A DNA stretch of 64,000 nucleotides from Lysobacter alkalisoli (lineage in GTDB: Bacteria; Pseudomonadota; Gammaproteobacteria; Xanthomonadales; Xanthomonadaceae): positions 124,001 to 188,000 of the forward strand of contig NZ_CP041242.1 of NCBI RefSeq assembly GCF_006547045.1. The letters are read 5' to 3'. Of the stretch, positions 48,633-64,000 are shown piece by piece. Numbering within the stretch: the stretch's first letter is position 1; each line of letters opens with the position of its first letter. The position numbers and the translations under genes were made by a program. The notes under the pieces were generated by a model, which saw only the letters and a list, made by a program, of their open reading frames with translations, did no database searches and was not told the DNA's origin.

Positions 48633-50077
48633 CGGCCGGTCTCCTGCAGTGCCGGCCTGGCGGGCGTCGTGCCGGCGGCGGCATTGGCGGCGTCGGCTTC
48701 CGTGGTCAGGGGCGTGGCCTGGTACAGAGTGTCGCCCTCGAAGCGGATCCCTACCTGCCGGCGTCGGCGCAGCCAGCCCTGCAGCGCGGCAGGGGCGAGC
48801 CGCAGCGCGGTCAATGCGTAGACCAGCCGGAACGCGCGCAGCCGCCGCAGCACGGCCGGGTTGTCGAACACATCGCCGGCCAGCATCGAGATCACCGCCT
48901 GTTCGATCTGCCAGTAGTTGCGTGGTTGGTTGAACAGTCGCTGCATGACCGGGGTGGTGAAGCGATAGATGAACCACTGGAAGTGGCGCAGGCCGCGCTT
49001 GAGCCGCTTCTCCATCGCCTGTTGCTGCGCATGTTCGCGGCCCGGATCGCGCAGGCTGGCGTCGACCACGGCCGCAGCCTGCTCGGCACTGTTCATGCCC
49101 AGGTAGACGCCGGAGGAGAACACCGGGTCGACGAAGGCATAGGCATCGCCCACCATCACCCAGCCAGGGCCGGACATGCGTTTGCAGGTATAGGAGTAGT
49201 TGCCGGTGACGTGGACGTCGCCGACGCGCTGCGCGCCCTGCATGCGCTCGGCGACCTGCGGCACCGACAGCAGGGTCTGCATCAGGAAGCCCTCGCTGTC
49301 GCCGCGGCGCTGCTTGAGGTACTCGGGGAAACACACCGCGCCGACGCTCATCACCCCGTCCGGGAGCGGGATCAGCCACATCCAGCCGTGCTCGAAACGC
49401 TGAACGGTGATGTTGCCGGCATCCTCGCCGGCGCGCCGCTGTACGCCGCGGAAGTGGCTGAAGATCGCCGCCGACTGGTGCCTGTCGTTCTTGCGCTTGA
49501 GCTTGAGCCGACGCCCGAGCACGGTGTCGCGGCCGCTGGCGTCGACCAGGTAGCGCGGCGCGAATACCCGTACGCGGCCGTCCGTATCGCGCGCATGCAC
49601 GCGTGCGGGCCGGCCGTCATCGCCGAACTCGACCTGCTCCACCCGCACCCGCTCGCGCGCATCGACGCCACTGCTGCGGGCGTGGTCGAACAGCAGTTTG
49701 TCGAAATCCTCGCGCCTGACCTGGAACGCGTAGCCGAACTTCGCGTCGATCGCGCGATCGAAACGGAAGGTGTTCCAGTCGCCTGCGCGTCCGGGCTCGT
49801 CGATAATCGGAAAGTCGGCCCCCGGCTTGTGGACGCCGATCGCGCGCACCTGTTCGAGCACGCCGAGGCGTTCGAGGATCGGCAGGTTCATCGGCAGCAG
49901 CGATTCGCCGATGTGGAAGCGCGGGTGGGCGTCCTTCTCCAGCTGGACCACGCGCCAGCCGCGGCGGGCGAGCAGGGTGGCCGCGGTGCTGCCCGCCGGG
50001 CCGCCGCCGATCACCAGCACGTCGCAGGTTTCGGGGGCTGCGGCGGGCGGTGCATCCATGGCGGCGGGCTCGGTCAT
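48629..50077 (-). CDS. Tryptophan halogenase-like FAD-dependent oxidoreductase of the pigment cluster
   Basis: 482 residues. FAD loop VLVIGGGPAGSTAATLLARRG at the N-terminus, halogenase-type HGWMWLIPLPDG (W-x-W-x-x-P pattern), and GDAYAFVDPVFSSGV. Such a gene accompanies xanB2 in Xanthomonas pigment clusters (xanB1 in older naming) and may halogenate or hydroxylate the aryl head. It is translationally coupled to xanB2 and divergent from the ACP gene by ~107 bp, the likely shared promoter region. The exact reaction is not shown by the sequence. Confidence 0.85.
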   Translation of the reverse strand: MTEPAAMDAPPAAAPETCDVLVIGGGPAGSTAATLLARRGWRVVQLEKDAHPRFHIGESLLPMNLPILERLGVLEQVRAIGVHKPGADFPIIDEPGRAGDWNTFRFDRAIDAKFGYAFQVRREDFDKLLFDHARSSGVDARERVRVEQVEFGDDGRPARVHARDTDGRVRVFAPRYLVDASGRDTVLGRRLKLKRKNDRHQSAAIFSHFRGVQRRAGEDAGNITVQRFEHGWMWLIPLPDGVMSVGAVCFPEYLKQRRGDSEGFLMQTLLSVPQVAERMQGAQRVGDVHVTGNYSYTCKRMSGPGWVMVGDAYAFVDPVFSSGVYLGMNSAEQAAAVVDASLRDPGREHAQQQAMEKRLKRGLRHFQWFIYRFTTPVMQRLFNQPRNYWQIEQAVISMLAGDVFDNPAVLRRLRAFRLVYALTALRLAPAALQGWLRRRRQVGIRFEGDTLYQATPLTTEADAANAAAGTTPARPALQETGR

Positions 50078-50184
50078 CACGACATGATAGCCGGGCGGCC
50101 GATCGCGAAACATGGCTCCGGCTTGCGCCGACGCGCCCGATGCCGGATCGTTGCGTCCCTGTTCCGCTGTCATGAAGACGCCTG

Positions 50185-50454
50185 ATGTCCGTACAAACCG
50201 CCGCCGAACGCGAACTGGCCGAACTGCTGGTCGAGAGCCTGAACCTGGAAGAGGTGGCTCCCGAAGGGATCGACCCCGAGGCCCCGCTGTTCGGCGAGGG
50301 CCTGGGGCTGGATTCGATCGATGCGCTGGAGCTGGCGCTGGCGATCTCGAAGAAGCACGGCATCCAGCTGCGCTCGGACAGCGACGAGAACCGCCGCATC
50401 TTCGCCTCGCTACGCGCGCTGGCGGCGCACATCGACCAGCAGAAGGCGGCCTGA
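50185..50454 (+). CDS. xanC: Acyl carrier protein of the aryl polyene/xanthomonadin cluster
   Basis: 89 residues with an ACP fold. The phosphopantetheine attachment site is Ser44 in GLGLDSIDALELA. The N-terminal helix ELAELLVESLNLEEV and the acidic character fit. In Xanthomonas the cluster ACP (XanC) holds the growing polyene. It is the first gene of a long plus-strand operon, ~107 bp from the divergent halogenase-like gene. Assignment to XanC is from position and family. Confidence 0.85.
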   Translation: MSVQTAAERELAELLVESLNLEEVAPEGIDPEAPLFGEGLGLDSIDALELALAISKKHGIQLRSDSDENRRIFASLRALAAHIDQQKAA

Positions 50455-50486
50455 GCCGGCCTCGCGGCGGCCCGGGCTCAGTCACC

Positions 50487-51179
50487 ATGCACAGCCTCCT
50501 GCCGCGCCTGCTGCTGGCGCTGGCCTATCCATGGCTGGCGCACTGGGCCGCTGGCGGCAGCGATCTCGCCGCCTCCCTGGCACTGGCCGACCTGGTCCTG
50601 ATCGTGCTTGTCGAAGGGCTGTTATGCCGGCGGCTGCGGGCCTGGCTGGCCCTGGCCGCGGCGCTGGCGATGCTGGCCGCCCTGCATGGCACGGTGTGGC
50701 CGCGAGTGCTGCTGCTGGCGCCGCCGATGCTGTTCACCGGGCTGGTGGCGTGGTTCTTCGCCCGCAGCCTGGCGGACCCGCGCGGCGCCCTGATCACCCG
50801 CATCGTCGCTGCGCTGGACCGTTGCGAGCCGGCCGCGCTGCCGCCGCGGCTGCATCGCTATACCCGGCGCCTGACCGCCGCCTGGGCCGGGGTGATGACG
50901 CTGCTGTGCGTGGTCAACGGCCTGCTCGCCCTGATCGCGGTGCCGGACGGCGCCCTGGCCCTGCTGGGGACCCGCGCGCCGCTGACGGTGAGCCGCGAAC
51001 AGTGGTCGCTGTTCGCCAACCTGCTCAACTACGGCCTGGTCGGGCTGTTTTTCGTCGGCGAGTACGCGTTGCGCCGGCGCTGGTTCCCGGCCCGGCCATA
51101 CCGCAACTTCCTCGAGTTCATGCGGATGATGGGCCGGCTCGGCCCCGAGTTCTGGCGCGGGCTGTTCACCCGTCCCTGA
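50487..51179 (+). CDS. COG4648 membrane protein of the aryl polyene cluster
   Basis: 230 residues with four or more transmembrane helices (e.g. LADLVLIVLVEGLL, MLAALHGTVW, MLFTGLVAWFFARSL, FANLLNYGLVGLFFVGEYAL). It has the RPYRNFLEFMRMMGRLGPEFWRG tail typical of ketosynthase-cluster membrane proteins. These accompany aryl polyene operons; the molecular role is unknown. It follows the ACP by 32 bp. In relatives an AMP ligase gene usually follows, but here the next gene is a dehydratase. Confidence 0.8.
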   Translation: MHSLLPRLLLALAYPWLAHWAAGGSDLAASLALADLVLIVLVEGLLCRRLRAWLALAAALAMLAALHGTVWPRVLLLAPPMLFTGLVAWFFARSLADPRGALITRIVAALDRCEPAALPPRLHRYTRRLTAAWAGVMTLLCVVNGLLALIAVPDGALALLGTRAPLTVSREQWSLFANLLNYGLVGLFFVGEYALRRRWFPARPYRNFLEFMRMMGRLGPEFWRGLFTRP

Positions 51180-51251
51180 GCGCCCCCGCATCCACGAACA
51201 CTTGTGGACGCGGCTGGAGGTTTCTCCGTCCCGGCCCGGTATCCTGCGTGC

Positions 51252-51539
51252 ATGGAATTCACCATCGCCCACGACCATCCATGCCTGCCCGGCCATTTCC
51301 CGGGCCGGCCGCTGGTGCCCGGGGTGGTGATCCTCGAGCGCGTGGTCGAGGCCGCGGAAGCCGCCGGTGCGGCGCCCGGCACCTGCTGGCAGTGGCCGCA
51401 GGTGAAGTTCCTGCAACCATTGCTGCCGGGCCAGACGGCACGTATCGAGCTTGATCGCGACGGCAGGCGCTGGCGTTTCCGTGTGCTGCATGACGGAACG
51501 CCGCTTGCCAGCGGCGAGCTGAAGGCCGGCGGCACATGA
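51252..51539 (+). CDS. FabZ/ApeI-like hotdog dehydratase (short)
   Basis: 95 residues with the dehydratase signature HDHPCLPGHFPGRPLVPGV (His near 10 and 15, Gly-His-Phe-Pro). This is the small hotdog type that removes water from 3-hydroxyacyl-ACP in polyene building. It is coupled to the following acyltransferase gene by ATGA at 51536-51539. Length is short but normal for the ApeI group. Confidence 0.83.
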   Translation: MEFTIAHDHPCLPGHFPGRPLVPGVVILERVVEAAEAAGAAPGTCWQWPQVKFLQPLLPGQTARIELDRDGRRWRFRVLHDGTPLASGELKAGGT

Positions 51540-52534
51540 GCACGACCACGCCTGCATCGGGCAATGGCGACTGGACCCGGCGCCCGGAGGGTGGCGGTCG
51601 CGTCGCGTTCTGGCTGATCGGCACCTTCGCCCGCCGTTTCGGGCGTACCCCGGCACGGCTGCTGCTGTATCCGATCACCCTGTACTACCTGGCCATGCGC
51701 GGGCCGGAGCGGCGTGCCTCACGGGCCTACCTGGAGCGCATCCTCGGCCGTCGTGCGCGACTGCGCGATGTCGCCCGCCACATCCACACCTTTGCCGCCA
51801 CCATCCTCGACCGGGTGTTCCTGCTGTGCGGACGGTTCGATGACTTCGAGATCGCGATCGAGGGGCTGGAGGCGCTCGTGGGCCGGGCCCAGCGCGGCGA
51901 GGGGATGCTGCTGTTCGGCTCCCACCTGGGCAGTTTCGAGGCCCTGCGTGCGCTGGCCGCGAAACACTCCGAAGTCCAGTTGCGGATCGTGCTCGACAAG
52001 CAGCACAACCCTGCCTTGACCGGGATGCTCGACGCGCTCAATCCGGAGCTGGCGCGCAATATCATCGATGCCGGCCAGGACGGTCCTTCGATCGTCCTCG
52101 CGATCCGCCAGGCCATCGATGACGGTGCCATGGTCGCGGTGCTGGCCGACCGTGTGCGTCCGGGCGAGACGGTCGAGCCGGTGCCGTTCCTGGGCGCGCC
52201 GGCGCCATTCCCGCTGGCTCCGTGGCTAATCGCCGCAGTGCTCGGTGCGCCGGTGGTGCTGGTGTTCGGCCTGTATCAGGGCGGGCGCCGCTACCGGTTG
52301 GTGTTCGAACCGTTCAATGCGGGCGGCACGATCGCGCGACGCGAGCGGGAACGAACGCTGTCGCAATGGGTCCATCGCTACGCTGCGCGGTTGGAGTCGC
52401 ATGCCCGCAGCGCCCCCTTCAACTGGTTCAACTTCTACGATTTCTGGCAGAACGACGATGCGCGAATCCCGCCGACCGCTGTTGCTGGCGCTACTGCTCA
52501 CGACGACGCTTCCGTTGCACGCGGGGCCGATTGA
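51536..52534 (+). CDS. LpxL/HtrB-like acyltransferase of the pigment cluster
   Basis: 332 residues. The HxxxxE acyltransferase motif is HLGSFE in LLFGSHLGSFEALRALA (near residue 124). Surrounding patterns (VFLLCGRFDDFEI, AVLADRVRPGE, FPLAPWLIAAVLGAPVVLVFG) match lauroyl/lysophospholipid acyltransferases. In aryl polyene clusters it is thought to attach the polyene to a lipid. It overlaps the next gene by 77 bp. Confidence 0.85.
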   Translation: MSTTTPASGNGDWTRRPEGGGRVAFWLIGTFARRFGRTPARLLLYPITLYYLAMRGPERRASRAYLERILGRRARLRDVARHIHTFAATILDRVFLLCGRFDDFEIAIEGLEALVGRAQRGEGMLLFGSHLGSFEALRALAAKHSEVQLRIVLDKQHNPALTGMLDALNPELARNIIDAGQDGPSIVLAIRQAIDDGAMVAVLADRVRPGETVEPVPFLGAPAPFPLAPWLIAAVLGAPVVLVFGLYQGGRRYRLVFEPFNAGGTIARRERERTLSQWVHRYAARLESHARSAPFNWFNFYDFWQNDDARIPPTAVAGATAHDDASVARGAD

Positions 52535-53165
52535 GCAGGCGATCGAGCCGGCTGTCGACGTGCCCGGCAGCGTCGACAGCCCGGCCGGGGCCGATTGGGT
52601 GCTGGCGAAGATCGCGCGGCCGGCGCCGGCGCGCACGCCATTTCTCGAACTGCGCGGCTCGGCCTTGCTCAAGGCGCCGCTGCGGGTGGTCGGCGAGTAT
52701 CGGCGTGAAGCCGACGACGCCCTGATCCGGCAGGTGCTGTCGCCCTACACCGAAACCACCACGATCGCCGACGGCATGGTCAGGATCGAACGCGACGGTC
52801 GTGCCGCGCGACGCTTTTCGATGTCGCGCGCACCCGAACTGGCCGCGTTGCAGGCCAGTTTCGGCGCGTTGCTGGCCGGCGACCGCGAGCGGCTGGAGCA
52901 GCACTACGATCTCGAGGTCGAGGGCAGCCGTCGCGCCTGGTCGCTGCACCTGTCGCCGCACGATCCCGACCTCGCCGCCCGCGTTTCCGGCATGACCTTG
53001 TACGGCCGTGGCGCCGAACTGCGCTGCATCGAGAGCACGCCGGTCGATGGTGGGGTCCAGCGCAGTCTGCTGGCCGGCGCGGTCATCGATGCCGAGGGCG
53101 TCGATGACCCGGCCGCATTGCAGGCGCTGTGCCACGGCGATGCCGCGACGGAGGGCGGTGGATGA
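52458..53165 (+). CDS. LolA-like outer-membrane carrier protein of the pigment cluster
   Basis: 235 residues with a signal peptide (about 1-22, LLLALLLTTTLPLHAG). The rest resembles LolA-like beta-sheet carriers (ELRGSALLKAPLRVVGEYR, then LEVEGSRRAWSLHLSP). It likely ferries the finished lipid-linked pigment through the periplasm. The ATG lies 77 bp inside the acyltransferase gene, and the stop overlaps the MMPL start by ATGA, so expression is tightly coupled. Confidence 0.8.
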   Translation: MRESRRPLLLALLLTTTLPLHAGPIEQAIEPAVDVPGSVDSPAGADWVLAKIARPAPARTPFLELRGSALLKAPLRVVGEYRREADDALIRQVLSPYTETTTIADGMVRIERDGRAARRFSMSRAPELAALQASFGALLAGDRERLEQHYDLEVEGSRRAWSLHLSPHDPDLAARVSGMTLYGRGAELRCIESTPVDGGVQRSLLAGAVIDAEGVDDPAALQALCHGDAATEGGG

Positions 53166-55516
53166 CGGCGCCAAGGCGTCTGTTGCTGGTCCTGTTGTGG
53201 CTGGGCCTGCTGCTCGCGGCCGGGTTCTGGATCGGCCAGCAGTTGCAGCTCAGCGGCGACCTGCGCCGGTTCATGCCGGGCGCGCGCACCCCGGCGCAGA
53301 AGTTGTTGATCGAGGAATTGGGCGAAGGCCCGGGCGCGCGCCTGCTGCTGGTGGCGCTGTCGGGCGATGCGCCGGCCGAACTGGCGCGGCAGTCGCAGGC
53401 CTTGCGCGGGGCGCTTGCGGACAGCGAACCCGATGAAGCGCATTTCGACGTCGTCGCCAACGGTGACGATGGCGGCCTCGACGCCGTGCCCGAACGCCTG
53501 CGTCCGTATCGCTACCTGCTGTCGGCTACGGCCGACCGGCAATCCCTCGACCGCGCCTGGCTGGCCGACGAGCTGGCCCAGCGCGTGCAGGATCTCGGCT
53601 CGCCGGCGGCGGATCTGATCGAACCGCTGTTGGCCCGCGATCCGACCCTGGAAGCCCTGAAACTGGCCGAAGCCTGGCAGCCGCCGGTCGCACCGGAGAA
53701 GCGCCACGGGGTCTGGTTCGACCGCAACGGCAACCAGGCCCTGTTGCTGCTGGAAACCCGCGCCGCCGGCTTCGATCCCGCAGGCCAGCAGGCGGCGCTG
53801 GCTACCTTGCGTGAGGCCTTCGACACGGTCCGCGGCGACAGCCCATCCGAGCTCATCGTCAGCGGCACTGGTGCCTTCTCCGAGCAGATCGCCGCCAATA
53901 CCCGGCGCGAGGCGACCCTGTTCGGCAGCCTCGGTGGTTGTGGCTTCGCGCTGATCCTGCTGCTCGCCTTCCGTCGCTGGCAGGTGCCGCTGTTGGCCGC
54001 ACTGCCGGTTGCCAGCGCCGGTCTGGTCGGGCTGGCTGCGGTGGCGCTGCTGTTCGCCGACGGGGTGCACGGAATCACTCTCGCGTTCGGCTTCACCCTG
54101 ATCGGCGTCGCCGCCGACTACCCGATCCATCTCTTCAGTCACCTGCGTCCGCAGCAGCCGCCACGCGACAGCGCCCGCCTGATCTGGCGCACCCTCGCCA
54201 CCGGTGTCGCCTCGACCTGCCTGGCCTACCTGACCTTCTTCGTCTCCGGTGTCGATGGCCTGCGCCAGCTGGCGGTGTTCACCGTCACCGGCCTTGCCAC
54301 CGCCGCGCTGGGCACCCGTTTCCTGCTGCCCGCCCTGCTTGTGCCGGCGTCGAGCGACATTGCCGAAGGTCCACGCATGGCGCGCCTGCTCGAAACCATC
54401 GAACGGCTGCCCCGGCCGGCGATGCCGGTCGTGCTGGGCGTGGCGGCGCTGGCGGTCGCGGTGATCGTGTTCGTGCCCGGCACCTTCTGGCAGAACGACC
54501 TGGCCCGGCTGACCCCGGTGCCGGAAGATGCGCTGGCACGCGACCTGCAACTGCGCGAGGCGCTCGGAGCGCCGGACGTGCGTTATCTGATTGCGATCCA
54601 GGGCGAGGATGTCGAGTCGGTGCTGATCCGTTCCGAGCAGTTGCGTCCGGCGCTGGAAACCCTGCGCGCCACCCACGTGATCGTCGGCTACGACATGGCC
54701 GCGCGCTATCTGCCCAGTGCGGCCACCCAGCGCCAGCGCCAGGCGCGCCTGCCGGATCCGGCGACCCTGCGCCGCGAACTGGCCGCGGCATTGGCCGGCG
54801 GCCCGTTCCGTGCGGATGCTTTCGAAGGCTTCATCGAAGACGTCGAGCATGCGCGTACGGCCACACCGCTGCGGGCCGGCGACCTCGTCGGCACTCCGCT
54901 GGAGGCCACCCTGGCCGGCCTGCTGCTTACCGGCGAACGGTTGTCCGACGATGGCCGCGCCACCGCGCTGGTCTCGCTGGCCGGCCTGGCAGATCCGGAC
55001 AGTGTGGCCCAGGTTGCCCGGGCCCACGATGTGCAATTGCTCGACCTCAAGCAGGCGTCCGAGTCGCTGGTCGCCGAATACCGCACCCGGGTGCTGTGGG
55101 CGCTGGCGCTGGCGGTGCTGCTGATGGCCGGTGGCGTGTACGTGATGTTGCGCGACCTGCGCCGCACCCTGCGCGTGCTCGCGCCGATGCTGCTGTCGAC
55201 CGTGCTGGTGCTGGCGCTGTTGCGCGGCTTGGGAGTCGAGTTGAACCTGTTCCACCTGGTTGCGCTGATGCTGGCGGCCGGGCTTGGGCTGGATTACGCG
55301 CTGTTCTTCGACCATGCAGGCGGCGACCATGCCGAGCAGTGCCGCACCCTGCACGCGGTCATGGTCTGCGCGGCATCGACCCTGCTGGTGTTCAGCCTGC
55401 TTGCACTGTCGTCGATCCCGGTGCTGCGTGCGATCGGCACCACCGTCGCGCTGGGGGTGTTGTTCAACCTGGTGCTGGCGTTGCTGGTCACGCGTCGGTC
55501 GGCGTTGCGCGTATGA
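53162..55516 (+). CDS. MMPL/RND-type exporter of the aryl polyene cluster
   Basis: 784 residues with two repeats of a membrane anchor helix, a large periplasmic loop and a bundle of five helices (helices near 10-25, 255-420, 650-780). Motifs GVAADYPIHLFSH and GLGLDYALFFDH occupy the two GxxxDY proton-relay positions of the MMPL/RND superfamily. It probably extrudes the polyene lipid from the inner membrane to the LolA-like carrier. The stop overlaps the next gene start (ATGA at 55513-55516). Confidence 0.9.
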   Translation: MTAPRRLLLVLLWLGLLLAAGFWIGQQLQLSGDLRRFMPGARTPAQKLLIEELGEGPGARLLLVALSGDAPAELARQSQALRGALADSEPDEAHFDVVANGDDGGLDAVPERLRPYRYLLSATADRQSLDRAWLADELAQRVQDLGSPAADLIEPLLARDPTLEALKLAEAWQPPVAPEKRHGVWFDRNGNQALLLLETRAAGFDPAGQQAALATLREAFDTVRGDSPSELIVSGTGAFSEQIAANTRREATLFGSLGGCGFALILLLAFRRWQVPLLAALPVASAGLVGLAAVALLFADGVHGITLAFGFTLIGVAADYPIHLFSHLRPQQPPRDSARLIWRTLATGVASTCLAYLTFFVSGVDGLRQLAVFTVTGLATAALGTRFLLPALLVPASSDIAEGPRMARLLETIERLPRPAMPVVLGVAALAVAVIVFVPGTFWQNDLARLTPVPEDALARDLQLREALGAPDVRYLIAIQGEDVESVLIRSEQLRPALETLRATHVIVGYDMAARYLPSAATQRQRQARLPDPATLRRELAAALAGGPFRADAFEGFIEDVEHARTATPLRAGDLVGTPLEATLAGLLLTGERLSDDGRATALVSLAGLADPDSVAQVARAHDVQLLDLKQASESLVAEYRTRVLWALALAVLLMAGGVYVMLRDLRRTLRVLAPMLLSTVLVLALLRGLGVELNLFHLVALMLAAGLGLDYALFFDHAGGDHAEQCRTLHAVMVCAASTLLVFSLLALSSIPVLRAIGTTVALGVLFNLVLALLVTRRSALRV

Positions 55517-55986
55517 AGGCGCCCATACCCGTACGCGATGACATCCTTGCGCTGGTTCCGCACCAGGGTGCGATGTGCCTGTGGGATGAGGTGCTGGGCT
55601 GGGACGACGGCACGATCCGGTTGCTGGCCGGCAATCATCGCGACCCCGGCCATCCGCTGCGTCATCACGACAGTTTGTCCGCGGTGCACCTGTGCGAATA
55701 CGGCGCCCAGGCAATGGCCGTGCATGGAGGCCTGCTCGCCCGCCGCGACGCCCTGCCGGCGCGCGCCGGCATGCTGGTCGCATTGCGTGGTGTCGAACTG
55801 GCGGTCGCGCGCATCGACGACCTCGATGGCCCGCTCATCGGCGAAGCCGAACGCCTCGCCGACAGTCCGGCCAGCCAGCTCTACACCTTTCGCATCCTGC
55901 ACGCCGACCGCGTGATCGCGCAGGGCCGGGCGACGGTCGCCCTGGGCGAGCCGCGGCAAGATGATCAGGAGGGCCCCCGGCTGTGA
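55513..55986 (+). CDS. 3-hydroxyacyl-ACP dehydratase-like hotdog protein of the pigment cluster
   Basis: 157 residues with a hotdog dehydratase fold (ILALVPHQGAMCLWDEVLGW, then HLCEYGAQAMAVHGGLLA). ApeP-like dehydratase is typical in aryl polyene loci. It is the last recognisable gene of the cluster in this window; a ketoreductase and ketosynthases would normally follow but are absent before the next, unrelated block. Confidence 0.84.
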   Translation: MKAPIPVRDDILALVPHQGAMCLWDEVLGWDDGTIRLLAGNHRDPGHPLRHHDSLSAVHLCEYGAQAMAVHGGLLARRDALPARAGMLVALRGVELAVARIDDLDGPLIGEAERLADSPASQLYTFRILHADRVIAQGRATVALGEPRQDDQEGPRL

Positions 55987-56080
55987 GTCGCGAGGTCCAT
56001 GCGAGTGCTGAGGCGCGCGTGTAAGCTGCGACCTCCGCAAGCCTCGTGCTTTCCCATTTTTCCTCATAAGGACATGACCC

Positions 56081-56326
56081 ATGACCCAACCCCATAGCCA
56101 CCTCGAAATCGCACTGGCGTCGATTCGTGTGTTTGCCGACGACGGCCAGCTGGATGTCGCCGAGTTGAACGGCCTGCTGGACCTGGCCCTGCGCGACCAT
56201 GTCATCGACCCGGACGAGCGACGGGTGCTGGGCAACATCCTGGTCCAGGCCGAAAAGGGACCGGTGGCGCCCGAAGTGGCGCGGCGTATCGGCGAGGTCC
56301 GGCGCAGGCACGACATTCCGGCTTGA
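56081..56326 (+). CDS. Small helical protein, possibly TerB-like
   Basis: 81 residues, all-helical and acidic. The pattern FADDGQLDVAELNGLLDLAL, then DHVIDPDERRVLGNIL resembles the D-x-x-x-D/E TerB/EF-hand-like turns. An AAGGAC ribosome-binding site precedes the ATG. It lies between the pigment cluster and the PspA-flotillin block and might belong to the latter, though a 161-bp gap with operator-like repeats separates it from yjfI. Family not certain. Confidence 0.65.
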   Translation: MTQPHSHLEIALASIRVFADDGQLDVAELNGLLDLALRDHVIDPDERRVLGNILVQAEKGPVAPEVARRIGEVRRRHDIPA

Positions 56327-56424
56327 CCGGCCTCGCCGGTTTGCCGCCCCTGCGTTCCCTGGCTTCCTCAGGCAATGCGGCCTGGTCCGCGCAATGGGCC
56401 GAGCGGGCGCCACCGCGCCCGCAT

Positions 56425-56481
56425 GTTTACATGTAATGACAGAGAGGTTTACATGTGGGTATTGACACATGTGACATGTGA
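56425..56481 (+). promoter_or_regulatory. Cluster of ACATGT palindromes upstream of yjfI (operator-like)
   Basis: GTTTACATGT occurs at 56425-56434 and 56447-56456 (22-bp spacing, about two helical turns). It is followed by CACATGTG at 56466-56473 and ACATGTGA at 56474-56481. This is an AT-rich island in GC-rich DNA immediately before the yjfI-pspA operon. A TTGACA hexamer (56462-56467) lies within it. An operator for a dimeric regulator is likely; no regulator gene is adjacent. Confidence 0.55.
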
Positions 56482-56487
56482 GGGTTA

Positions 56488-57114
56488 ATGTCGATTCCCA
56501 TGGAACGCAAGACCTCCGCCTACTACCAGCGCCGTCACCGTGAAAAGTTGCGGGAGATGGGGTTGGTGAAGAAGGAGCTTTGGATCCTGCCCGAGTTCGG
56601 TGACGAGCTCGCGGCAGTGGAACGACGCATGCGCCAGCCCCGCGGCTCGGTGCCCACCCAGAAGGAGATTGGTATGAACGAGCCCAAGGTCTGGACAGCG
56701 CAGGCCCTCAACGAGGCGCTGGCGGCGACGGAGTCCTTCCGCAGCGGCGCGGTGTCGGTCGAGCTGCTCGACGGCGCCGAGCCCAGCCTGCACCTGGTCA
56801 TGCACGATTACGGCGACCTGCCGGTGTTCGTGGCCGTGGTCGGCGAGCAGATCATCGTCGAGGCACTGCTGTGGCCGGTGTCGCAGGTCAAGGACCCGGC
56901 CGCCTTCAACGAAGAGGTGCTGCGCACCCACAAACTGTTCCCGCTGTCGACCATCGGCATCGAGACCATCGACGGCGATCCGGTCTACATCATGTTCGGC
57001 GCGCTGGACGCGCACTCGTCGCTGTCCAACGTGGTGTTCGAGATCGACACCCTGGCCGACAACGTCATCAAGGTCACCGAGGCGTTCGAATCGCGCCTGC
57101 GTGACGCCGCTTGA
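56488..57114 (+). CDS. yjfI: YjfI family protein (DUF2170)
   Basis: 208 residues. The C-terminal ~140 residues match DUF2170/YjfI (WTAQALNEALAATESFR, then YGDLPVFVAVVGEQIIVEALLWPV and FELPL-like LFPLSTIGIETIDG). An extra N-terminal ~60 residues (TSAYYQRRHREKLREMGLVK and LWILPEF) are basic and may bind DNA or membrane. In E. coli yjfI is next to a pspA-like gene (yjfJ), as here. Function unknown but linked to PspA by context. The start at 56488 has AGGG just upstream; 56500 is an alternative. Confidence 0.85.
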   Translation: MSIPMERKTSAYYQRRHREKLREMGLVKKELWILPEFGDELAAVERRMRQPRGSVPTQKEIGMNEPKVWTAQALNEALAATESFRSGAVSVELLDGAEPSLHLVMHDYGDLPVFVAVVGEQIIVEALLWPVSQVKDPAAFNEEVLRTHKLFPLSTIGIETIDGDPVYIMFGALDAHSSLSNVVFEIDTLADNVIKVTEAFESRLRDAA

Positions 57115-57165
57115 TCCCGCCTGCATCAACGCACAGCACATGACAGACAGGAACGGAGAAACACG

Positions 57166-57858
57166 ATGAACATCTGGAGCAAGCTGTTGACCGCGCTGCG
57201 TGGCGGCGCGACCGAAGTGGGCGAGTCGATCATCGACGGCCACGCGCTGCGCATCCTCGACCAGGAGATCCGCGACTCGGACGTCGAACTGCGCCGGTCG
57301 AAGGAGGCGCTGGCCGAAATCATGGCCAAGCTCAAGCTGGCCGAAGGCCGGTTGGCGAAGTCGAACGAGAAAATCGCCGAGTACGAGGCCTACACGATCA
57401 AGGCGCTGGATTCCGGCGACGAGAACCTGGCCCGCGAAGTCGCCGGCAAGATCGCGACGCTGGAAACGGTGCGCGACGGCGAGCAGCAGCAGGTCGAGCA
57501 GTTCTTCGCCAGCGTGGCCGACCTGCGCAAGTCGATCACCCAGGCCGAGACCAACATCCGCCGGCTCAAGCAGCAGGTCGACACGGTCAAGGCCACCGAG
57601 AGCGTGCAGCGCGCACAGTCCACCGTTGCCCACCGCTACAGCGGCTCGCAGAGCAAGCTGCAGACGGCAGTGGACTCACTGGAACGGATCAAGCAGAAGC
57701 AGGCCGAGCGCGGCGCGCGCATGGAGGCCGCGGCCGAACTGGCCAAGGACGAGGGCCAGGACGCGGTCGACGCGAAATTGAAGGAAGCCGGCATCATCGC
57801 CGACGCGGTCAGTGCCGATTCGGTGCTGGAGCGGTTGAAGAAGAAACAAGCCGTTTGA
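57166..57858 (+). CDS. pspA: PspA/IM30 family protein
   Basis: 230 residues, almost wholly coiled-coil, with an N-terminal amphipathic helix (MNIWSKLLTALRGGATEVG) and the typical PspA/IM30 pattern (DSDVELRRSKEALAEIMA, then NIRRLKQQVDTVKATESVQ). Such proteins form ESCRT-III-like oligomers that protect the inner membrane under stress. It lies 51 bp after yjfI and ~125 bp before yqiJ. The YjfJ subgroup fits best. Confidence 0.93.
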   Translation: MNIWSKLLTALRGGATEVGESIIDGHALRILDQEIRDSDVELRRSKEALAEIMAKLKLAEGRLAKSNEKIAEYEAYTIKALDSGDENLAREVAGKIATLETVRDGEQQQVEQFFASVADLRKSITQAETNIRRLKQQVDTVKATESVQRAQSTVAHRYSGSQSKLQTAVDSLERIKQKQAERGARMEAAAELAKDEGQDAVDAKLKEAGIIADAVSADSVLERLKKKQAV

Positions 57859-57983
57859 ACCCAGGCCGGCTGAGCGTGCAGGTGACGGGACGGAACCCAT
57901 CGACCGGTCCGGGCAGGGAAGCCCGGCAGCCTGCCGCCATGGCAGGGCGCGACGTCGAGAGTTGACGGCATCGGGAGTGGGCG

Positions 57984-58628
57984 ATGGAGATTTTCCTGCA
58001 GATCGTTTTTTCCTATCCGACCGTGCTGTTCAGCATCCTGCTGGCCGTGGCGGTTGGCTACTGGCTGCTGGCGGCACTTGGCCTGGTCGAGATGGAAGCG
58101 CTGGATGGCTGGATTGCGCCGGATTTCGACACAGTCGAAGTCGATGGTTTCGCAGGAGCATTGATGAAGTTCGGACTCGGTGGCCTGCCACTGATGCTGG
58201 TATTCACCGTGCTGGTGTTCTTTGCCTGGCTGCTCAGTTACTTCGCCGACTATCTGGTGCTGCGCCATCTGCCGGGCGGCTGGCTGCGGCTGCTGACAGG
58301 CAGTGGCGTCATGCTGGGCGCGTTCGTCGCGGCAGTACCGGTGACCAGCGTGGTGTTGCGACCAGTGCGAAAGATGTTCGAAAAACTGCGTCCGGCGCCG
58401 ATACGCTCCTTGTTGGGCATGGCCGGGGTGGTGCGCAGCTCGGTGGTGGATGCCCGGCAGGGCACCGCCAATGTCGAGGACGGCGGTGCGGGTCTGATAC
58501 TGCAGGTCCGAAACGACAGCGACGGCGGCAGAACGTTCGGGCGAGGTGACCGGATCGTGCTGATCGAGTACCTGGAAACCGAGAACGCCTACCGCGTGAT
58601 CGGCGAGGACGAATTCAAGGGCCTGTGA
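57984..58628 (+). CDS. yqiJ: YqiJ family OB-fold membrane protein (DUF1449)
   Basis: 214 residues with three transmembrane segments (about 7-35, 70-95 and 108-127). A C-terminal OB-fold-like domain follows (GMAGVVRSSVVDARQGTANV, then FGRGDRIVLIEYLETENAYRV), as in NfeD-like partners of flotillins. It lies 63 bp before the flotillin gene, as in E. coli yqiJ-yqiK. It presumably anchors or assists the flotillin. Confidence 0.87.
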   Translation: MEIFLQIVFSYPTVLFSILLAVAVGYWLLAALGLVEMEALDGWIAPDFDTVEVDGFAGALMKFGLGGLPLMLVFTVLVFFAWLLSYFADYLVLRHLPGGWLRLLTGSGVMLGAFVAAVPVTSVVLRPVRKMFEKLRPAPIRSLLGMAGVVRSSVVDARQGTANVEDGGAGLILQVRNDSDGGRTFGRGDRIVLIEYLETENAYRVIGEDEFKGL

Positions 58629-58691
58629 CGTGCATTGGTTGCGCGATATCGGGACCGGCTTCTACAGAACGAGTCATACGGAGATGGGGTA

Positions 58692-60683
58692 ATGATGATT
58701 GAGCAAATACTGCCGTTCCTGATCGGCGCGGGCGTGCTGTTCGTGTTGATACTGGGCCTGTTCGGCCTGTTCAAGGCCTTCTACATCAAGGTGCCACAGG
58801 GCACCGCGTTGATCGTCAATGATCTGTCGTCGACGCCGAAGGTGCATTTCACCGGTGCGCTGGTCTACCCGGTGGTCTACAAGAAGGAGTTCATGAAGAT
58901 CTCCTTGATCACCCTGGAGGTCGACCGACGCGGCAAGGATGGGCTGATCTGCCGCGACAACATGCGCGCCGACATCACCGTGGCGTTCTACCTGCGTGTC
59001 AACGAGACCCAGCAGGACGTGCTCAAGGTGGCCAAGTCGATCGGTGTCGATCGCGCTTCGGAGAAGGGTGCGGTCAACGAACTGTTCAACGCCAAGTTCT
59101 CCGAGGCGCTGAAGACGGTCGGCAAGAAGATCGACTTCGTGAAGCTGTTCGAGAACCGGCAGGAATTCCGCGACAGCATCGTCGATGTGATCGGCAACGA
59201 CCTCAACGGCTACATCCTCGAGGACGTCGCGATCGACTACCTCGAGCAGACTCCGAAGTCGTCGCTGGACCCGAGCAACATCCTCGACGCCGAGGGCATC
59301 CGCAAGATCACCGAGCTGACCGCGGCGCAGAACGTCATCACCAACGAGCTCTCGCGCAACGAAGAGCTGGCGATCAAGAAGAAGAACGTAGAGACGAAAG
59401 AGGCGATGCTGGCGCTGGAGCGGCAGCAGGCCGACGCCGAGGCGCGGCAGAAGCGCGAGATCGAAACCATCAAGGCGCGCGAGGAAGCCGAGACCCTGAA
59501 GGTGCAGGAAGAGGAGCGTCTGAAGGCCGAACAGGCGCGCATCACGGTGCAGGAGCAGCTCGACATCCGCGAGGAGAACCGCCTGCGCGAGGTCGAGGTC
59601 GCCCAGCAGAACCGCCAGCGCGCGGTGGTGATCGAGGTCGAGAAGGTCACCCGCGCCAAGGACCTGGAGATCGTCTCGCGCGAGCGTGAGGTCGAGCTGC
59701 AGAAGATCGAGAAGGAAAAGGCGCTGGAGGTCGAGCGCAAGGAAATCGCCAACGTCATCCGCGAGCGGGTCGCGGTCGAGAAGACCGTCGCCCAGGAGGA
59801 GGAGCGTATCAAGGAAGTGCGCGAGGTGTCCGAGGCCGACCGCCACAAGCAGGTCATCATCCTCGAGGCGCAGGCCAAGGCCGAGCAGGAGCTGGTGCGC
59901 CAGGTCAAGCAGGCCGAGGCCGACGAGACCGCGTCCCGCCACAAGGCGGTCGAGGTCACGGTGATGGCGCAGGCCGACCTGGAGGCCGCAGCCAAGCAGG
60001 CCGAGGCCAAGAAGAAGCTGGCCGAAGGCATCGAAGCCGAGCGCGCGGCACCTGGCCTGGCCGATGCGCGGGTGCTCGAGGTCACGGCTGCGGCACAGGA
60101 GAAAGAGGGCCTGGCGCAGGCGCGCGTCGCCGCCGAGAAACTCATCGCCGAGGCGCGCGGCGGGCAGGAAAAGGGCCTGGCCGAAGCCAAGGTGCTGGAG
60201 GAGAAGCTGACGGCACAGGCGCGCGGCGAGCAGTCGCTCGGCGAGGCCAAGGCCAAGGCGACCCGCGACGTGGGCCTGTCCGAAGCCGACGTGCTGCTGC
60301 AGAAGCTCAAGGCCGAGGCCGAGGGCCTGGGCGAGAAGTTCGGCGCGCTGGAAGCGCTGACCGACGACGCCCGCGCCCACGAGGAGTTCCGCATGCAGCT
60401 GGAGAAGAACTTCGAGCAGGCGATCGCCTCGATCGAGGCCAACAAGGACGTCGCCAAGGAACAGGCCGACGTGCTGGCCGCCGCGCTCAGCAAGGCCAAC
60501 ATCGACATCGTCGGTGGCGAGGGCGAGTTCTTCAATTCCTTCGCCAAGGCGCTGTCGGTGGGCAAGGCGATCGAGGGCGTCGCCGGCAAGAGCCCGATCG
60601 TGCAGGACGTGCTGCAGCGGCTGATGGCGCTGGGCAAGGGCGACGGCGTGGCCAAGTCGGAAGGGCGGCCGCTGGATTCCTGA
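58692..60683 (+). CDS. yqiK: Flotillin family protein YqiK
   Basis: 663 residues. One N-terminal transmembrane helix (about 5-28), then a Band 7/SPFH domain (about 28-200, VKVPQG-like YIKVPQGTALIVND and VAIDYLEQTPKSSLDP). A very long charged coiled coil (about 210-560, with E/A/K/R-rich repeats) follows, then a C-terminal oligomerisation segment. It should form membrane microdomain scaffolds. ATG at 58692 follows a GGAG site. A hairpin and a REP-like palindrome lie between it and the next gene. Confidence 0.93.
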   Translation: MMIEQILPFLIGAGVLFVLILGLFGLFKAFYIKVPQGTALIVNDLSSTPKVHFTGALVYPVVYKKEFMKISLITLEVDRRGKDGLICRDNMRADITVAFYLRVNETQQDVLKVAKSIGVDRASEKGAVNELFNAKFSEALKTVGKKIDFVKLFENRQEFRDSIVDVIGNDLNGYILEDVAIDYLEQTPKSSLDPSNILDAEGIRKITELTAAQNVITNELSRNEELAIKKKNVETKEAMLALERQQADAEARQKREIETIKAREEAETLKVQEEERLKAEQARITVQEQLDIREENRLREVEVAQQNRQRAVVIEVEKVTRAKDLEIVSREREVELQKIEKEKALEVERKEIANVIRERVAVEKTVAQEEERIKEVREVSEADRHKQVIILEAQAKAEQELVRQVKQAEADETASRHKAVEVTVMAQADLEAAAKQAEAKKKLAEGIEAERAAPGLADARVLEVTAAAQEKEGLAQARVAAEKLIAEARGGQEKGLAEAKVLEEKLTAQARGEQSLGEAKAKATRDVGLSEADVLLQKLKAEAEGLGEKFGALEALTDDARAHEEFRMQLEKNFEQAIASIEANKDVAKEQADVLAAALSKANIDIVGGEGEFFNSFAKALSVGKAIEGVAGKSPIVQDVLQRLMALGKGDGVAKSEGRPLDS

Positions 60684-60689
60684 TGGCAT

Positions 60690-60718
60690 CGCCGGCCGGG
60701 CGCTGAGTCCGGCCGGCG
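60690..60718 (+). terminator. Hairpin after yqiK
   Basis: CGCCGGCC / GGCCGGCG stem with a 13-base loop, followed by TTCTT. It lies just after the yqiK stop and may attenuate transcription into the ATPase-like gene. Confidence 0.45.
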
Positions 60719-60772
60719 TTCTTCAACAACCCGTTGGAGCCTGTTCGTGGTCCCGGGATGCCTCGGAACAGC

Positions 60773-60800
60773 CGTCATTCCCGCTTTCGCGGGAGTGACG
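60773..60800. repeat. REP-like palindrome (GTCATTCCCGC type)
   Basis: CGTCATTCCCGC (60773-60784) pairs with GCGGGAGTGACG (60789-60800) around a TTTC loop; one G-U pair, otherwise perfect. It is a different repeat family from the GTAG-REPs. It sits in the 210-bp gap between yqiK and the giant gene. Confidence 0.7.
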
Positions 60801-60893
60801 AGCAGAAAATCGAAGATCGTGAACAGACATCTCTTGGATGCAACGGCCGCCGCGCCGCACTGATCGCCCCGTGCAGGGACAGGATGGAGACCC

Positions 60894-63800
60894 ATGGCGG
60901 AACAGACCGCGCAATCGACCGATCATGACGCACCCGGCAAGATGGCCGGGGCGGATAGCGCAGTGGACAAGGCCGTCGCCGAAGGCGGCGCCTATGAAGT
61001 CCTGCAGCGGCGACTGGCCGAACAGGGCCAGAATCTGCGTGGCCTGGCCGAGGCGCTCAACACGCAGCGCCTGCAGGAATTCGGCAGCAGCCGGATGGAA
61101 CTGGTCGGGCGCCTGCGCGTGCGCACCGAGAACAACTGCGTCGCCCGCGACCTGGTCCAGGTCGGCGACCGCCTGCTGTTCGGCTACAACGTCTTCATCG
61201 GGCTGAAGAAGGAAACCCGGGTCGAGGACGTGTTCTCGATGTACCAGCTGGTCGAGTCCGGCGACGGTCACGACGTCACCCCGATCAGGCTCGCCGACAG
61301 CTTCCTCGGCGACGCCGGGTTCGTTCGGGACTTCGCCGAGCTCTACGCCTACTACAAGGACACCCGGCTGCTGCAGCTGGCGGTGCGCAACGGCAAGCTG
61401 CTGGCGGCATTCCAGATCGGCGAGAGGCTCGACGACCTGCGCGTGTTCCGCTGGGCGATCAGCGACGAGGGCCGCGAGGTCCGCTACATCGATAACCGCG
61501 GCGAGCGCGACATCGCGCTGCCGGCGCCATACGACTTCGAGTGGACCGAGGCCACCCGCGAGATGGCGGTCAACGGCCGCCACCCGCATCTGAACATCCT
61601 CGACACCGTATTCGTCGAGACCATCGGCGGCGATCTGACCATCAAGATCGAGAACAACACCGACGACGGCGAGGGCATCCATCGCGAACCGGTCGAGGAC
61701 AAGACCCAGTCGCTGGACGACGCGAAGGTCGCATTCGCACGGCTCGGCAGCCTGATGCTGTTGAAGGTGCTGCCGTACCGCGAGACGCAGTGGCGGCACT
61801 TCGTTTACAACACGCTGACCCGCCAGGTCCGTCGTATCGACGAGATCGGCCAGGCCTGCATCCAGTTGCCGGAAGACCACGGCATCGTGTTCCCGGGTGG
61901 CTACTACCTGCAGAACGGCGAGTACCGGGCGTTCGAACAGTCGATGCAGGGCATGCGCTTCAAGCGCGCGCTGCGCTCGCCCAACGGCGAGGACGTGTTG
62001 TACGTGTTCTACGAGCCGGTCGCCGGCCGCATCGCGCTGTTCACCTACAACATGATCGAGCGACGGTTGCAGACGCCGATGTTCGGGCATGGCCATGCAC
62101 GCCTCGCCGATGGCCGCATGGTGATCTTCAGCTCGGAAAGCGACGATCCGACCCGCGTCCATCCGATGCAGGTCTGGCGGACCCCGTTCACCAGCGACGA
62201 GTTCGCCGCCCGCCAGCCGGCCGGCAACACCTTCATGGGCCGGATCGGCAACGCCGAGCTGGTGCGCGGCATTTCCGATCTCTACAACCTGGTGCGCGAG
62301 ATCGAGGCCGACGAAGTGTCGCTGCAGCGCTACGGCCAGCTGGCCCAGGACGCGCGCCGCCTGTTCGACCTGCACCACTGGCTGGCCGATCCGCAGGCCG
62401 GCGAGGTGGCGCCGCTGCTGCACGGCATCGTCGCCACCAGCGAATCGGTGCTCGACGAGTACGAGAAGGTCGAGAGCATCCGCCGGCAGTCGGCACAGGC
62501 CATGGCCGAAGCCGTTGTCGCGCAGAAGGCCCTGCTCGGCAGCCTGATGACGGACGACTGGGACACTGTGCAGCCATACGTGGAAGCGCTGGGCGCCCTG
62601 TCGCGGCAGCGCGGCCACCTGCTGACGCTGCGCGACTACCGCTACATGGATGTCGCTGCGATCGACGCGATGGAGGCGGCGCTGCTGGAGGCGCAGGACC
62701 GCATCGGCGTCGCGACCGGCGAGTTCCTGGCCGGTGAACGCGCACTGGCGCCGTTCACCGAACAACTCAAGCGACTCGACGAACAGGCCCAGGCGGCGGA
62801 AAGCGTCAGCGCGCTGGCCGAGCCATTGGCGTCGATGCAGGCAATGTCGGCCGACCTCGACATGCTGTCGGAACTGATGGCGACGTTGAAGGTCGACGAC
62901 GCGACCCGCCGGACCCATATCGTCGAGTCGATCTCGGAAATCTATGCGCGGCTGAACCAGGCCAAGGCGCGCGCCGAGCAGCGTCGCAAGTCGCTGGGCT
63001 CGGCCGAGTCGGTGGCGCAGTTCGGCGCCCAGTTCAGCCTGTTCTCCCAGAGCATCGCCAGCGCGCTGGCGCTCGCCCAGGACCCGGAGCGCTGCGACGA
63101 GCAATTGTCGCGGCTGATGGTGCAGCTGGAGGAGCTGGAGAGCCAGTTCGGCGAGCACGACCAGTTCCTCGCCGACATCCTCGCCAAGCGCGAGGAACTG
63201 CTGGAGACCTTCGAAAGCCACAAGCAGGCGCTGCTCGACGATCGCCAGCGCAAGGCGCAATCGGTGGCCGACGCGGCCACGCGCATCCTCGACGGCCTGT
63301 CACGGCGGACCGCGCGGCTGGCTTCGGCCGATGAACTCAACGCGTTCTTCGCCGGCGACCCGCTGATCCTCAAGCTGCGCGAGCTGGTCGAACGACTGCG
63401 CACGCTGCGCGACAACGTGCGCGCGGACGATGTCGAGGCGCGCCTCAAGGGCGCGCGCGACCAGGCCGTGCGCGGCCTGCGCGACCGCAGCGAACTGTTC
63501 GAGGCCGGCGGCGACGTCATCAAGCTCGGCCCGCGCCATCGTTTCAGCGTCAACACCCAGGAACTCGACCTGACCGTGATGCCGCGCGGCGACGGTCTGT
63601 CGCTGCACCTGACTGGCACCGACTACTTCGAACCGCTGCAGGACCCCACGCTGGAGGAACTGCGCGGGTTCTGGCAGGTGTCGCTGGATTCGGAATCACC
63701 GCAACTCTACCGTGGCGAGTACCTGGCCGGGCTGATGCTCGACGCCGCGCACGAGGGCCGCGACGGGCTCGACCGCGACCGGCTCCGGCAGGCGCTGGCG

Positions 63801-64000
63801 CAACCGGAAACCCTGTCGAAACGGGTGCGCGACTTCGCCGCCCCGCGCTATCGCGAGGGATACGAGAAGGGCATCCACGACCACGACGCCACCTTGATCC
63901 TGCAAGCCCTGCTGCCGCTGCAGGACAGCGCCGGCAGCCTGGTGCATGCGCCGGACGCGCGTGCGCTGGCGTGGCTGGCCTGGTCGTTGCTGCAGTCCGG
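60894..64000 (+). CDS. Giant coiled-coil 'DNA repair ATPase'-type protein, N-terminal part
   Basis: Open frame from ATG 60894 to the end of the window, at least 1035 codons, no stop. Residues ~1-150 are helical. Residues ~150-480 have repeated beta patterns reminiscent of a propeller (RVFRWAISDEGREVRYID, then GGYYLQNGEYRAFEQSMQG and RIALFTYNMIERRLQ). Residues ~500-900 are long coiled coils. Proteins of this layout are annotated DNA repair ATPases and have a C-terminal AAA+ domain, which would lie beyond this window. No Walker A is visible here. It follows pspA-yqiJ-yqiK on the same strand and probably belongs to that system. Confidence 0.8.
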   Translation, partial: MAEQTAQSTDHDAPGKMAGADSAVDKAVAEGGAYEVLQRRLAEQGQNLRGLAEALNTQRLQEFGSSRMELVGRLRVRTENNCVARDLVQVGDRLLFGYNVFIGLKKETRVEDVFSMYQLVESGDGHDVTPIRLADSFLGDAGFVRDFAELYAYYKDTRLLQLAVRNGKLLAAFQIGERLDDLRVFRWAISDEGREVRYIDNRGERDIALPAPYDFEWTEATREMAVNGRHPHLNILDTVFVETIGGDLTIKIENNTDDGEGIHREPVEDKTQSLDDAKVAFARLGSLMLLKVLPYRETQWRHFVYNTLTRQVRRIDEIGQACIQLPEDHGIVFPGGYYLQNGEYRAFEQSMQGMRFKRALRSPNGEDVLYVFYEPVAGRIALFTYNMIERRLQTPMFGHGHARLADGRMVIFSSESDDPTRVHPMQVWRTPFTSDEFAARQPAGNTFMGRIGNAELVRGISDLYNLVREIEADEVSLQRYGQLAQDARRLFDLHHWLADPQAGEVAPLLHGIVATSESVLDEYEKVESIRRQSAQAMAEAVVAQKALLGSLMTDDWDTVQPYVEALGALSRQRGHLLTLRDYRYMDVAAIDAMEAALLEAQDRIGVATGEFLAGERALAPFTEQLKRLDEQAQAAESVSALAEPLASMQAMSADLDMLSELMATLKVDDATRRTHIVESISEIYARLNQAKARAEQRRKSLGSAESVAQFGAQFSLFSQSIASALALAQDPERCDEQLSRLMVQLEELESQFGEHDQFLADILAKREELLETFESHKQALLDDRQRKAQSVADAATRILDGLSRRTARLASADELNAFFAGDPLILKLRELVERLRTLRDNVRADDVEARLKGARDQAVRGLRDRSELFEAGGDVIKLGPRHRFSVNTQELDLTVMPRGDGLSLHLTGTDYFEPLQDPTLEELRGFWQVSLDSESPQLYRGEYLAGLMLDAAHEGRDGLDRDRLRQALAQPETLSKRVRDFAAPRYREGYEKGIHDHDATLILQALLPLQDSAGSLVHAPDARALAWLAWSLLQS

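Follow-up and report, generated by a model that had tools for sequence, protein, structure and literature searches.

Proposed autorepression of the bac (YjfI-PspA-flotillin-ATPase) operon of Lysobacter alkalisoli through an N-terminal domain of BacA and candidate operators

The DNA analyzed here, referred to as the window, comprises 64,000 nucleotides of Lysobacter alkalisoli and corresponds to positions 124001-188000 of a genome that consists of a single 3.86 Mb contig (NZ_CP041242.1). Its 3′ end holds most of the bac operon, and the best explanation of the whole, to which we assign a probability of roughly 0.65, is that bac is a phage shock protein (PSP)-type operon whose first product, BacA (YjfI), represses it. 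Autorepression is the simplest reading because BacA carries an autorepressor-like domain, candidate sites are located just 5′ of its gene, the domain and the sites co-occur, and a published bacA mutant overproduces other Bac proteins. The N-terminal domain of BacA with its matching sites, a small conserved gene, and the likeness of BacF to MitoPLD together with a rhomboid neighbor go beyond what we found in print in the open-licence PMC literature. If the proposal is true, many YjfI-PspA operons would have a control circuit that works without sigma-54, and a clean switch would be available for studying the PspA-flotillin-ATPase set.

BacA was recognized by the DUF2170 model of Pfam (177 bits) and by the BacA equivalog of NCBIfam, where its 347 bits pass the cut-off of 300, in agreement with the yjfI assignment of an earlier note on this DNA. 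That note placed the start of the gene block at 56081, which belongs to a separate 81-aa gene; the start of BacA is most likely 56500. The features on which the proposal depends are the following.

56500..57114, + strand: bacA (yjfI), DUF2170; start taken from a conserved Met and a constant distance to the operators
56500-56643, + strand: BacA residues 1-48, basic N-terminal domain; the remainder of BacA is DUF2170 (CesT/Tir-like)
56427..56436, unstranded: proposed BacA operator 1, TTACATGTAA, with ACATGT at -71 from the ATG at 56500
56449..56458, unstranded: proposed BacA operator 2, imperfect, TTACATGTGG, at -49
56465..56481, unstranded: proposed BacA operator 3, a pair of ACATGT that overlap, at -33 and -26
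56462..56467, + strand: TTGACA, a possible -35 element found by eye, with no good -10 after it

For comparison, 566 BacE-related stretches were collected from genome contigs and the best 80 were kept, which together with the window's own copy gives 81 loci, a set chosen by BacE similarity and not a census (L and G numbers below denote our loci and genomes). BacA begins with a basic domain of ∼48 aa that is conserved in 52/52 aligned BacA sequences, with the consensus MExKSSAxYQRxxRQRLREQGLVKKEVWILPE over 25 of them and a computed pI of 10.3 for the window's stretch. The BacA structure in the Protein Data Bank (PDB 8Q8O, 146 aa) aligns with BacA only beyond this domain. In a locus of the Pseudomonas aeruginosa group (L162), the DUF2170 part shares 99% identity with 8Q8O and the N-terminal stretch is present in frame upstream, giving computed masses of 15.9 kDa for the short form and 22.8 kDa for the full form. 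Since 8Q8O starts after the domain and the published mass of 16 kDa (PMC2587700) matches the short form, the published structure and analyses of BacA seem to be based on a shortened bacA, without the part that probably makes BacA a repressor.

The N-terminal domain resembles the F autorepressor of plasmid RSF1010 and, judged from its sequence, may be an overlooked DNA-binding-like head. The UrfF model (plasmid repression protein F) matches 21 of 25 BacA N termini, the best at 3.8e-6, and a profile-profile comparison of the BacA N-terminal and UrfF families with hhalign gave an E value of 5.5e-5 over 41 columns. Sub-threshold matches to the Pfam MazE-like family were obtained for 19/25 N termini (best 1e-3). 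Membership of BacA in the UrfF family was rejected, as the window's N terminus scores 13.3 bits against an NCBIfam cut-off of 100, a level that IncQ1 UrfF proteins exceed (139 and 127 bits). Because the cut-off is not reached, we describe BacA as working like the F repressor and do not count it as a member.

The palindrome motif TNACATGTNA recurs 5′ of bacA, mostly with a spacing of 22-24 bp. In the window, four ACATGT sequences fall within 51 bp 5′ of bacA and seven in the entire 64 kb; the total is at chance level, and the clustering exceeds chance. The triple ACATGT cluster is the sole one in the genome, as judged with a looser pattern that was picked after the strict search had failed. Its -26 site occupies the commonest position among relatives, in which the last site lies 23-27 bp 5′ of the ATG in 43/46 loci with sites and the gaps between sites measure 22-24 bp in 40/48 cases. 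This constant distance supports the ATG at 56500 as the start of bacA.

Sites were counted from script-placed starts of 53 BacA, leaving out the window's copy and L092. ACATGT sites precede bacA in 46 of these loci, TTTCATGTAA/TTACATGAAA take their place in six, and one has neither. At least one strict TNACATGTNA occurs within 150 bp in 44/53 loci and two or more in 35/53, with two ACATGT each in two further loci. All seven loci without ACATGT have divergent N termini, as would be expected if BacA is the binder; an eighth divergent N terminus (L096) is accompanied by the site TTACATGTAA. Where bacA is missing, the strict motif was found 5′ of bacC in 0/24 loci (a single ACATGT in one), and no sites were found in L106, in which bacB is present and bacA missing. 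The remaining 1.287 Mb of the BacA loci contain seven strict sites. In L092 (5500-6249, Pseudomonas sp. MF4836), the N-terminal domain is broken, the DUF2170 part is open, and two TCACGCGTGA are present.

Three other samples were examined. In 12 hand-picked carrier genomes, a paired site was found at bacA in nine, and nowhere else in eight of these (G420 has three extra paired sites away from bacA), while a reversed control pattern had no match in any of the 12. A preset operator rule was applied to 31 DUF2170 loci (30 of 51 matches plus E. coli), which gave sites in 0/23 loci without the domain vs 5/8 with it, the window and G246 being among the five; L212, which is domain-like by eye and below the threshold, was counted as without the domain. 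A further set of 59 loci, of which 22 were unclassified and in which some genomes recur from the other sets, was analyzed with a simple expression; in all 37/37 loci in which it recognized the domain, one or more ACATGT lie within 330 bp. A comparison of 13 representatives, in which the six central site bases agree by construction, places the flank outside the sites mostly at background identity (0.24-0.34 per block), while T at -2 never varies and A at +7 hardly does. We also noticed other palindromes near the start of DUF2170 genes with divergent N termini (L211-L217), which possibly represent changed operators. Those in L213, L214 (22 bp), and L217 (TCACGCGTGA) come from a post hoc look at the three domain-bearing loci that lack the preset operator and were not counted.

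Several points weigh against this interpretation. Every UrfF match falls far short of the cut-off, and hhalign assigns a probability of only 66%. The AlphaFold2 (AF2) model of the domain consists of a helix at 6-19, a low-confidence stretch, and a helix at 31-45, which leaves the fold class unsettled; Foldseek with the BacA model matched the C-terminal domain alone (8Q8O and CesT/YbjN-type folds), and the N-terminal profile found nothing above chance in the PDB. The strict paired-site pattern had no match in the L. alkalisoli genome because some of the window's sites, two of them, are imperfect. One locus (L084) lacks any site, G001 and G003 have no paired match, the only one in G451 is away from bacA, and 3/8 domain-bearing loci failed the preset operator rule. 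Relatedness among the loci inflates all operator counts. A strict scan of 55950-57200 found no consensus sigma-70 promoter, so the promoter layout is something we infer, as are the sensing step and the machine as an entirety. Lastly, another regulator could bind the sites.

Even with these points considered, it is quite probable, on the strength of the sequence comparisons, that BacA is an autorepressor that acts through the candidate sites. Autorepression would explain the phenotype of a P. aeruginosa bacA insertion mutant, in which five other Bac proteins are raised 6.1- to 13.5-fold (PMC10948618). In the mechanism we propose, BacA dimers would occupy adjacent palindromes, roughly two turns of the helix from one another, and prevent transcription. 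Free BacB, the PspA of the system, would be held by the chaperone-like domain of BacA, such that the repressor gauges unused PspA; envelope stress would draw BacB to the membrane, repression would ease, and BacB-BacF would be made. The sensing step is suggested because a BacA-BacB contact is predicted at 0.981 (PMC13092808) and an unpublished interaction is mentioned in PMC10948618. The odds that BacB is a co-regulator of BacA are about even. If it is, we would favor a co-repressor over an anti-repressor, by analogy with the PspA-PspF system, in which unused PspA feeds back negatively (PMC2587700).

Two other explanations of the regulation were considered. The palindromes could be operators of an unlinked regulator, with BacA acting on that regulator or post-transcriptionally. 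The link between BacA and the sites comes from sequence rather than from binding, and paired sites do occur away from bacA (three in G420 and one in G451), which this explanation accommodates. However, the sites and the N-terminal domain come and go together, and the N termini diverge in each of the loci that lack ACATGT, so we consider an unlinked regulator unlikely. We regard it as rather improbable that the operon is driven by sigma-54 in the manner of the classic PSP response, with BacA regulating via protein contacts only, as was proposed for P. aeruginosa. Both P. aeruginosa papers place a putative RpoN site 5′ of bacA (PMC2587700, PMC10948618), and chaperone-type regulation is discussed in the latter, but in both, bacA was taken in its short form. 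The strongest sigma-54-like candidate in L162 agrees at 7/11 positions under our rule and extends over the first codons of the N-terminal domain. In the window, the interval from the preceding gene to bacA contains no sigma-54 match at two mismatches or fewer (no search for pspF was made).

The autorepression proposal concerns an operon with the following further genes; the coordinates of bacF, which lies past the window, are given in the numbering of the window.

56081..56326, + strand: small 81-aa gene, its family found in 27/81 loci
57166..57858, + strand: bacB, PspA/Vipp1 family (PF04012, 179.5 bits)
57984..58628, + strand: bacC, YqiJ-like membrane protein with three hydrophobic segments, assigned by family profile
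58692..60683, + strand: bacD, flotillin-type SPFH protein, with an alternative open TTG start at 58635
60894..64000, + strand: bacE, residues 1-1035 of 1764 aa in the window; the gene ends at 66188, past the window
66199-66918, + strand: bacF, PLD-family gene directly after bacE

The earlier note had described five genes on one strand, from yjfI to a giant ATPase, and all five were recovered in that order by open reading frames (ORFs) and family searches. With bacF, the window and its flank beyond 64000 hold six genes, bacA-bacF, in the same order as the lettering and all on the + strand. The five-gene extent falls short, as the set also includes bacF, often the small extra gene, and sometimes a rhomboid protease. 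Among the 81 loci, BacA is present in 55, BacB in 56, BacC in 79, BacD in 80, BacE in 81, BacF in 45, and the small protein in 27. All of A to E are found in 55/81 loci, and in 55/55 of these, the genes are collinear on one strand, which bears out the conserved order that the note's reading required; C-D-E stand alone in 21/81. The closest named matches among the best 80 BacE-related stretches are from Lysobacter species, with best-segment identities of 78-81%. The family PF12458 was found in 18/60 relatives and in 8/299 genomes drawn from the phylum (own genome counted in both), and it had no match in 14 control genomes, E. coli among them.

The assignments of the other proteins held as well. 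BacB is a PspA paralog (PspA_IM30, 179.5 bits in Pfam) whose PDB matches are Vipp1/PspA chains, the best at 5e-7. BacC has no Pfam match, but a search with a profile of its family recovers E. coli YqiJ (8.1e-12). BacD matches E. coli YqiK at 3.6e-40; its Band_7 score of 22.0 bits, under the cut-off of 23.6, appeared only when residues 1-269 were scanned alone, and no PDB match was found at 0.001. BacE, which reaches 1764 aa once read past 64000, contains PF12458/DUF3686 at 48-495 (680 bits), DUF7902 at 617-700, and an AAA domain at about 1300-1430 (Pfam). The note had proposed reading on for the gene end and Walker motifs, and a complete AAA+ core is present: in an alignment of 89 sequences, the stretches ISPPGYGKTT, YVDDIQH, GNPYTESG, and LANRAD are conserved and match Walker A, Walker B, and what we take to be the sensor 1 and arginine finger of AAA+ ATPases. 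Matches of BacE to PDB entries are weak and are of the AAA+ type (ClpE, p97-type, and RuvB chains). A Vps4-type ESCRT ATPase was rejected, as neither an MIT domain nor the Vps4 model appeared in the Pfam table.

BacF scores 86.8 bits with PF13091, a PLD-like domain with an HxK motif. Its best PDB matches are mitochondrial cardiolipin hydrolases (1.3e-30 over residues 85-229 and 1.7e-26), far ahead of the nuclease NucT (3.7e-5). Rhomboid genes (PF01694; the one in L064 scores 66.7 bits) were found in 26 of the 89 loci compared, 16 of them with the arrangement bacE-rhomboid-bacF; no rhomboid gene is present near the window's bac copy. Examples are L064 (15187-15744) and similar loci, and L194 (10388-10942), where the gene stands beside yjfI-pspA.

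These assignments suggest what the products may do. BacB polymers would coat damaged membrane, BacC and BacD would form a flotillin-type scaffold, BacE would remodel or dismantle assemblies of BacB or BacD, and BacF would act on lipid at the damaged membrane. We put the action of BacE on such assemblies at an even chance, and the case for lipid rather than nucleic acid as the BacF substrate is just as finely balanced. The earlier note had taken PspA and flotillin, together with the giant ATPase-like protein, to suggest a machine for membrane repair. The likeness of BacB to Vipp1/PspA, the intact AAA+ core of BacE, the conserved gene order, and the accumulation of PA3731 upon osmotic shock (PMC2587700) favor this idea, but the published phenotypes concern biofilm, swarming, rhamnolipids, and virulence. 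We regard it as plausible, with the balance slightly against it. It is compatible with autorepression and a part of that proposal. The note's label of a "DNA repair ATPase" was right in that an ATPase domain is present, while "DNA repair" goes back to a family name. Nucleic acid as the target of BacE and BacF is very doubtful: the title of PF12458 (ATPase involved in DNA repair), the weak similarity of BacE to RuvB, and the occurrence of NucT among the relatives of BacF speak for it, but the RuvB similarity is confined to ∼45 residues around Walker A, and a flotillin gene, bacD, is the neighbor in 80/81 loci.

The small gene lies 5′ of bacA in six of its 27 loci, in the bacD/bacE interval in 20, and downstream on the opposite strand in one. 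Its product carries two acidic DG-type motifs (D-G-x-L-D-x-x-E / R-D-x(3)-D-x-x-E), and D21, G22, D25, E28, D39, D43, and E46 are invariant in 18 aligned sequences. The window copy has no Pfam match. Sub-threshold matches among its relatives are to NIR_SIR_ferr (14/18), EF-hand_7 (11/18), and TerB (9/18), and a TerB/EF-hand assignment was rejected, as no score rose above its cut-off and the commonest weak match is NIR_SIR_ferr instead. A fold search with a model of the protein returned no match at E values of 0.001 or lower. Further 5′ of the bac genes (∼48629-55986), ORFs that by eye resemble an acyl-carrier protein, an acyltransferase, an MMPL-type exporter, and a dehydratase are perhaps, from their translations, an aryl-polyene/xanthomonadin-type cluster.

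The locus is a Lysobacter-type copy of the already described bac operon, a six-gene envelope-stress operon of bacteria, and the system itself is not new. The earlier note held that the function of the whole was not established, but mutant phenotypes of the operon have been published. The name (biofilm-associated cluster) was given in PMC2587700, in which a PA3731 mutant is biofilm-defective. In P. aeruginosa, every gene junction of bacA-bacF yielded an RT-PCR (reverse transcription PCR) product, and the bacA insertion mutant shows less rhamnolipid, swarming, and biofilm (PMC10948618, which also deposited 8Q8O). The L. alkalisoli locus matches this operon in all six genes and in their order, with BacA above the equivalog cut-off, and adds the small gene at 56081. 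The near-identical P. aeruginosa-group locus L162 shares the N-terminal domain and the paired sites, whereas in the published work BacA is limited to its short DUF2170 version and sigma-54 control is proposed. The same gene set is one group of the CesT/Tir-PspA operons of Ravi et al. 2024 (PMC11237479), who describe an AAA+ protein with β-propeller and coiled coil, a 3TM YqiJ-like protein, and an HKD hydrolase in some Proteobacteria, the same domains as at this locus. The genomic-context sections of that paper mention neither an operator nor a DNA-binding domain of YjfI, and TerB and DUF3686 are not in its main text.

E. coli K-12 has homologs of BacA-D but, as the earlier note stated, split over two loci (yjfI-yjfJ and yqiJ-yqiK); its YjfI has no N-terminal domain of this kind, and the sites are missing from the yjfI promoter. 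On plasmid pQBR103 (NC_009444.1; L194, 8947-18132), a yjfI-pspA-rhomboid-polyamine row continues into a BacC homolog, an SPFH protein, and a "DNA repair ATPase," thus uniting on one row what E. coli has at two loci, and TTTCATGTAA, TTACATGAAA, and TTACATGTAA occur there 5′ of yjfI. The classical PSP system shares the PspA/IM30 protein (BacB here) and has PspB/PspC beside pspA, vs BacA and BacC-F at this locus, to which the comparison is confined, the rest of the genome not having been searched.

The RSF1010 F repressor (urfF/repF) shares a similar 41-residue stretch with the BacA N terminus, and RepF binds its own P4 promoter in feedback inhibition of its operon (PMC6201506). By eye, four urfF loci have paired palindrome-like sites 24 bp apart that vary with the protein, and bacA likewise has paired palindromes in the promoter region of its own operon; F differs in being a stand-alone 68-aa protein with another site sequence. 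MitoPLD/Zucchini proteins are the nearest solved relatives of BacF, and the eukaryotic MitoPLD family includes nuclease members too. Mitochondrial membranes possess an SPFH-rhomboid-AAA quality control, which the bac set with its rhomboid recalls. We tentatively suggest, at somewhat less than even odds, that YjfI/BacA may be a new type of regulator, in which a DNA-binding head similar to a plasmid repressor is joined to a body similar to a secretion chaperone. It would read the state of PspA, a bacterial ESCRT-III protein, and provide PSP control without PspF or sigma-54. The operon it guards, in which an SPFH scaffold and an AAA+ ATPase are combined with a MitoPLD-like hydrolase and, in many cases, a rhomboid protease, may resemble that mitochondrial system.

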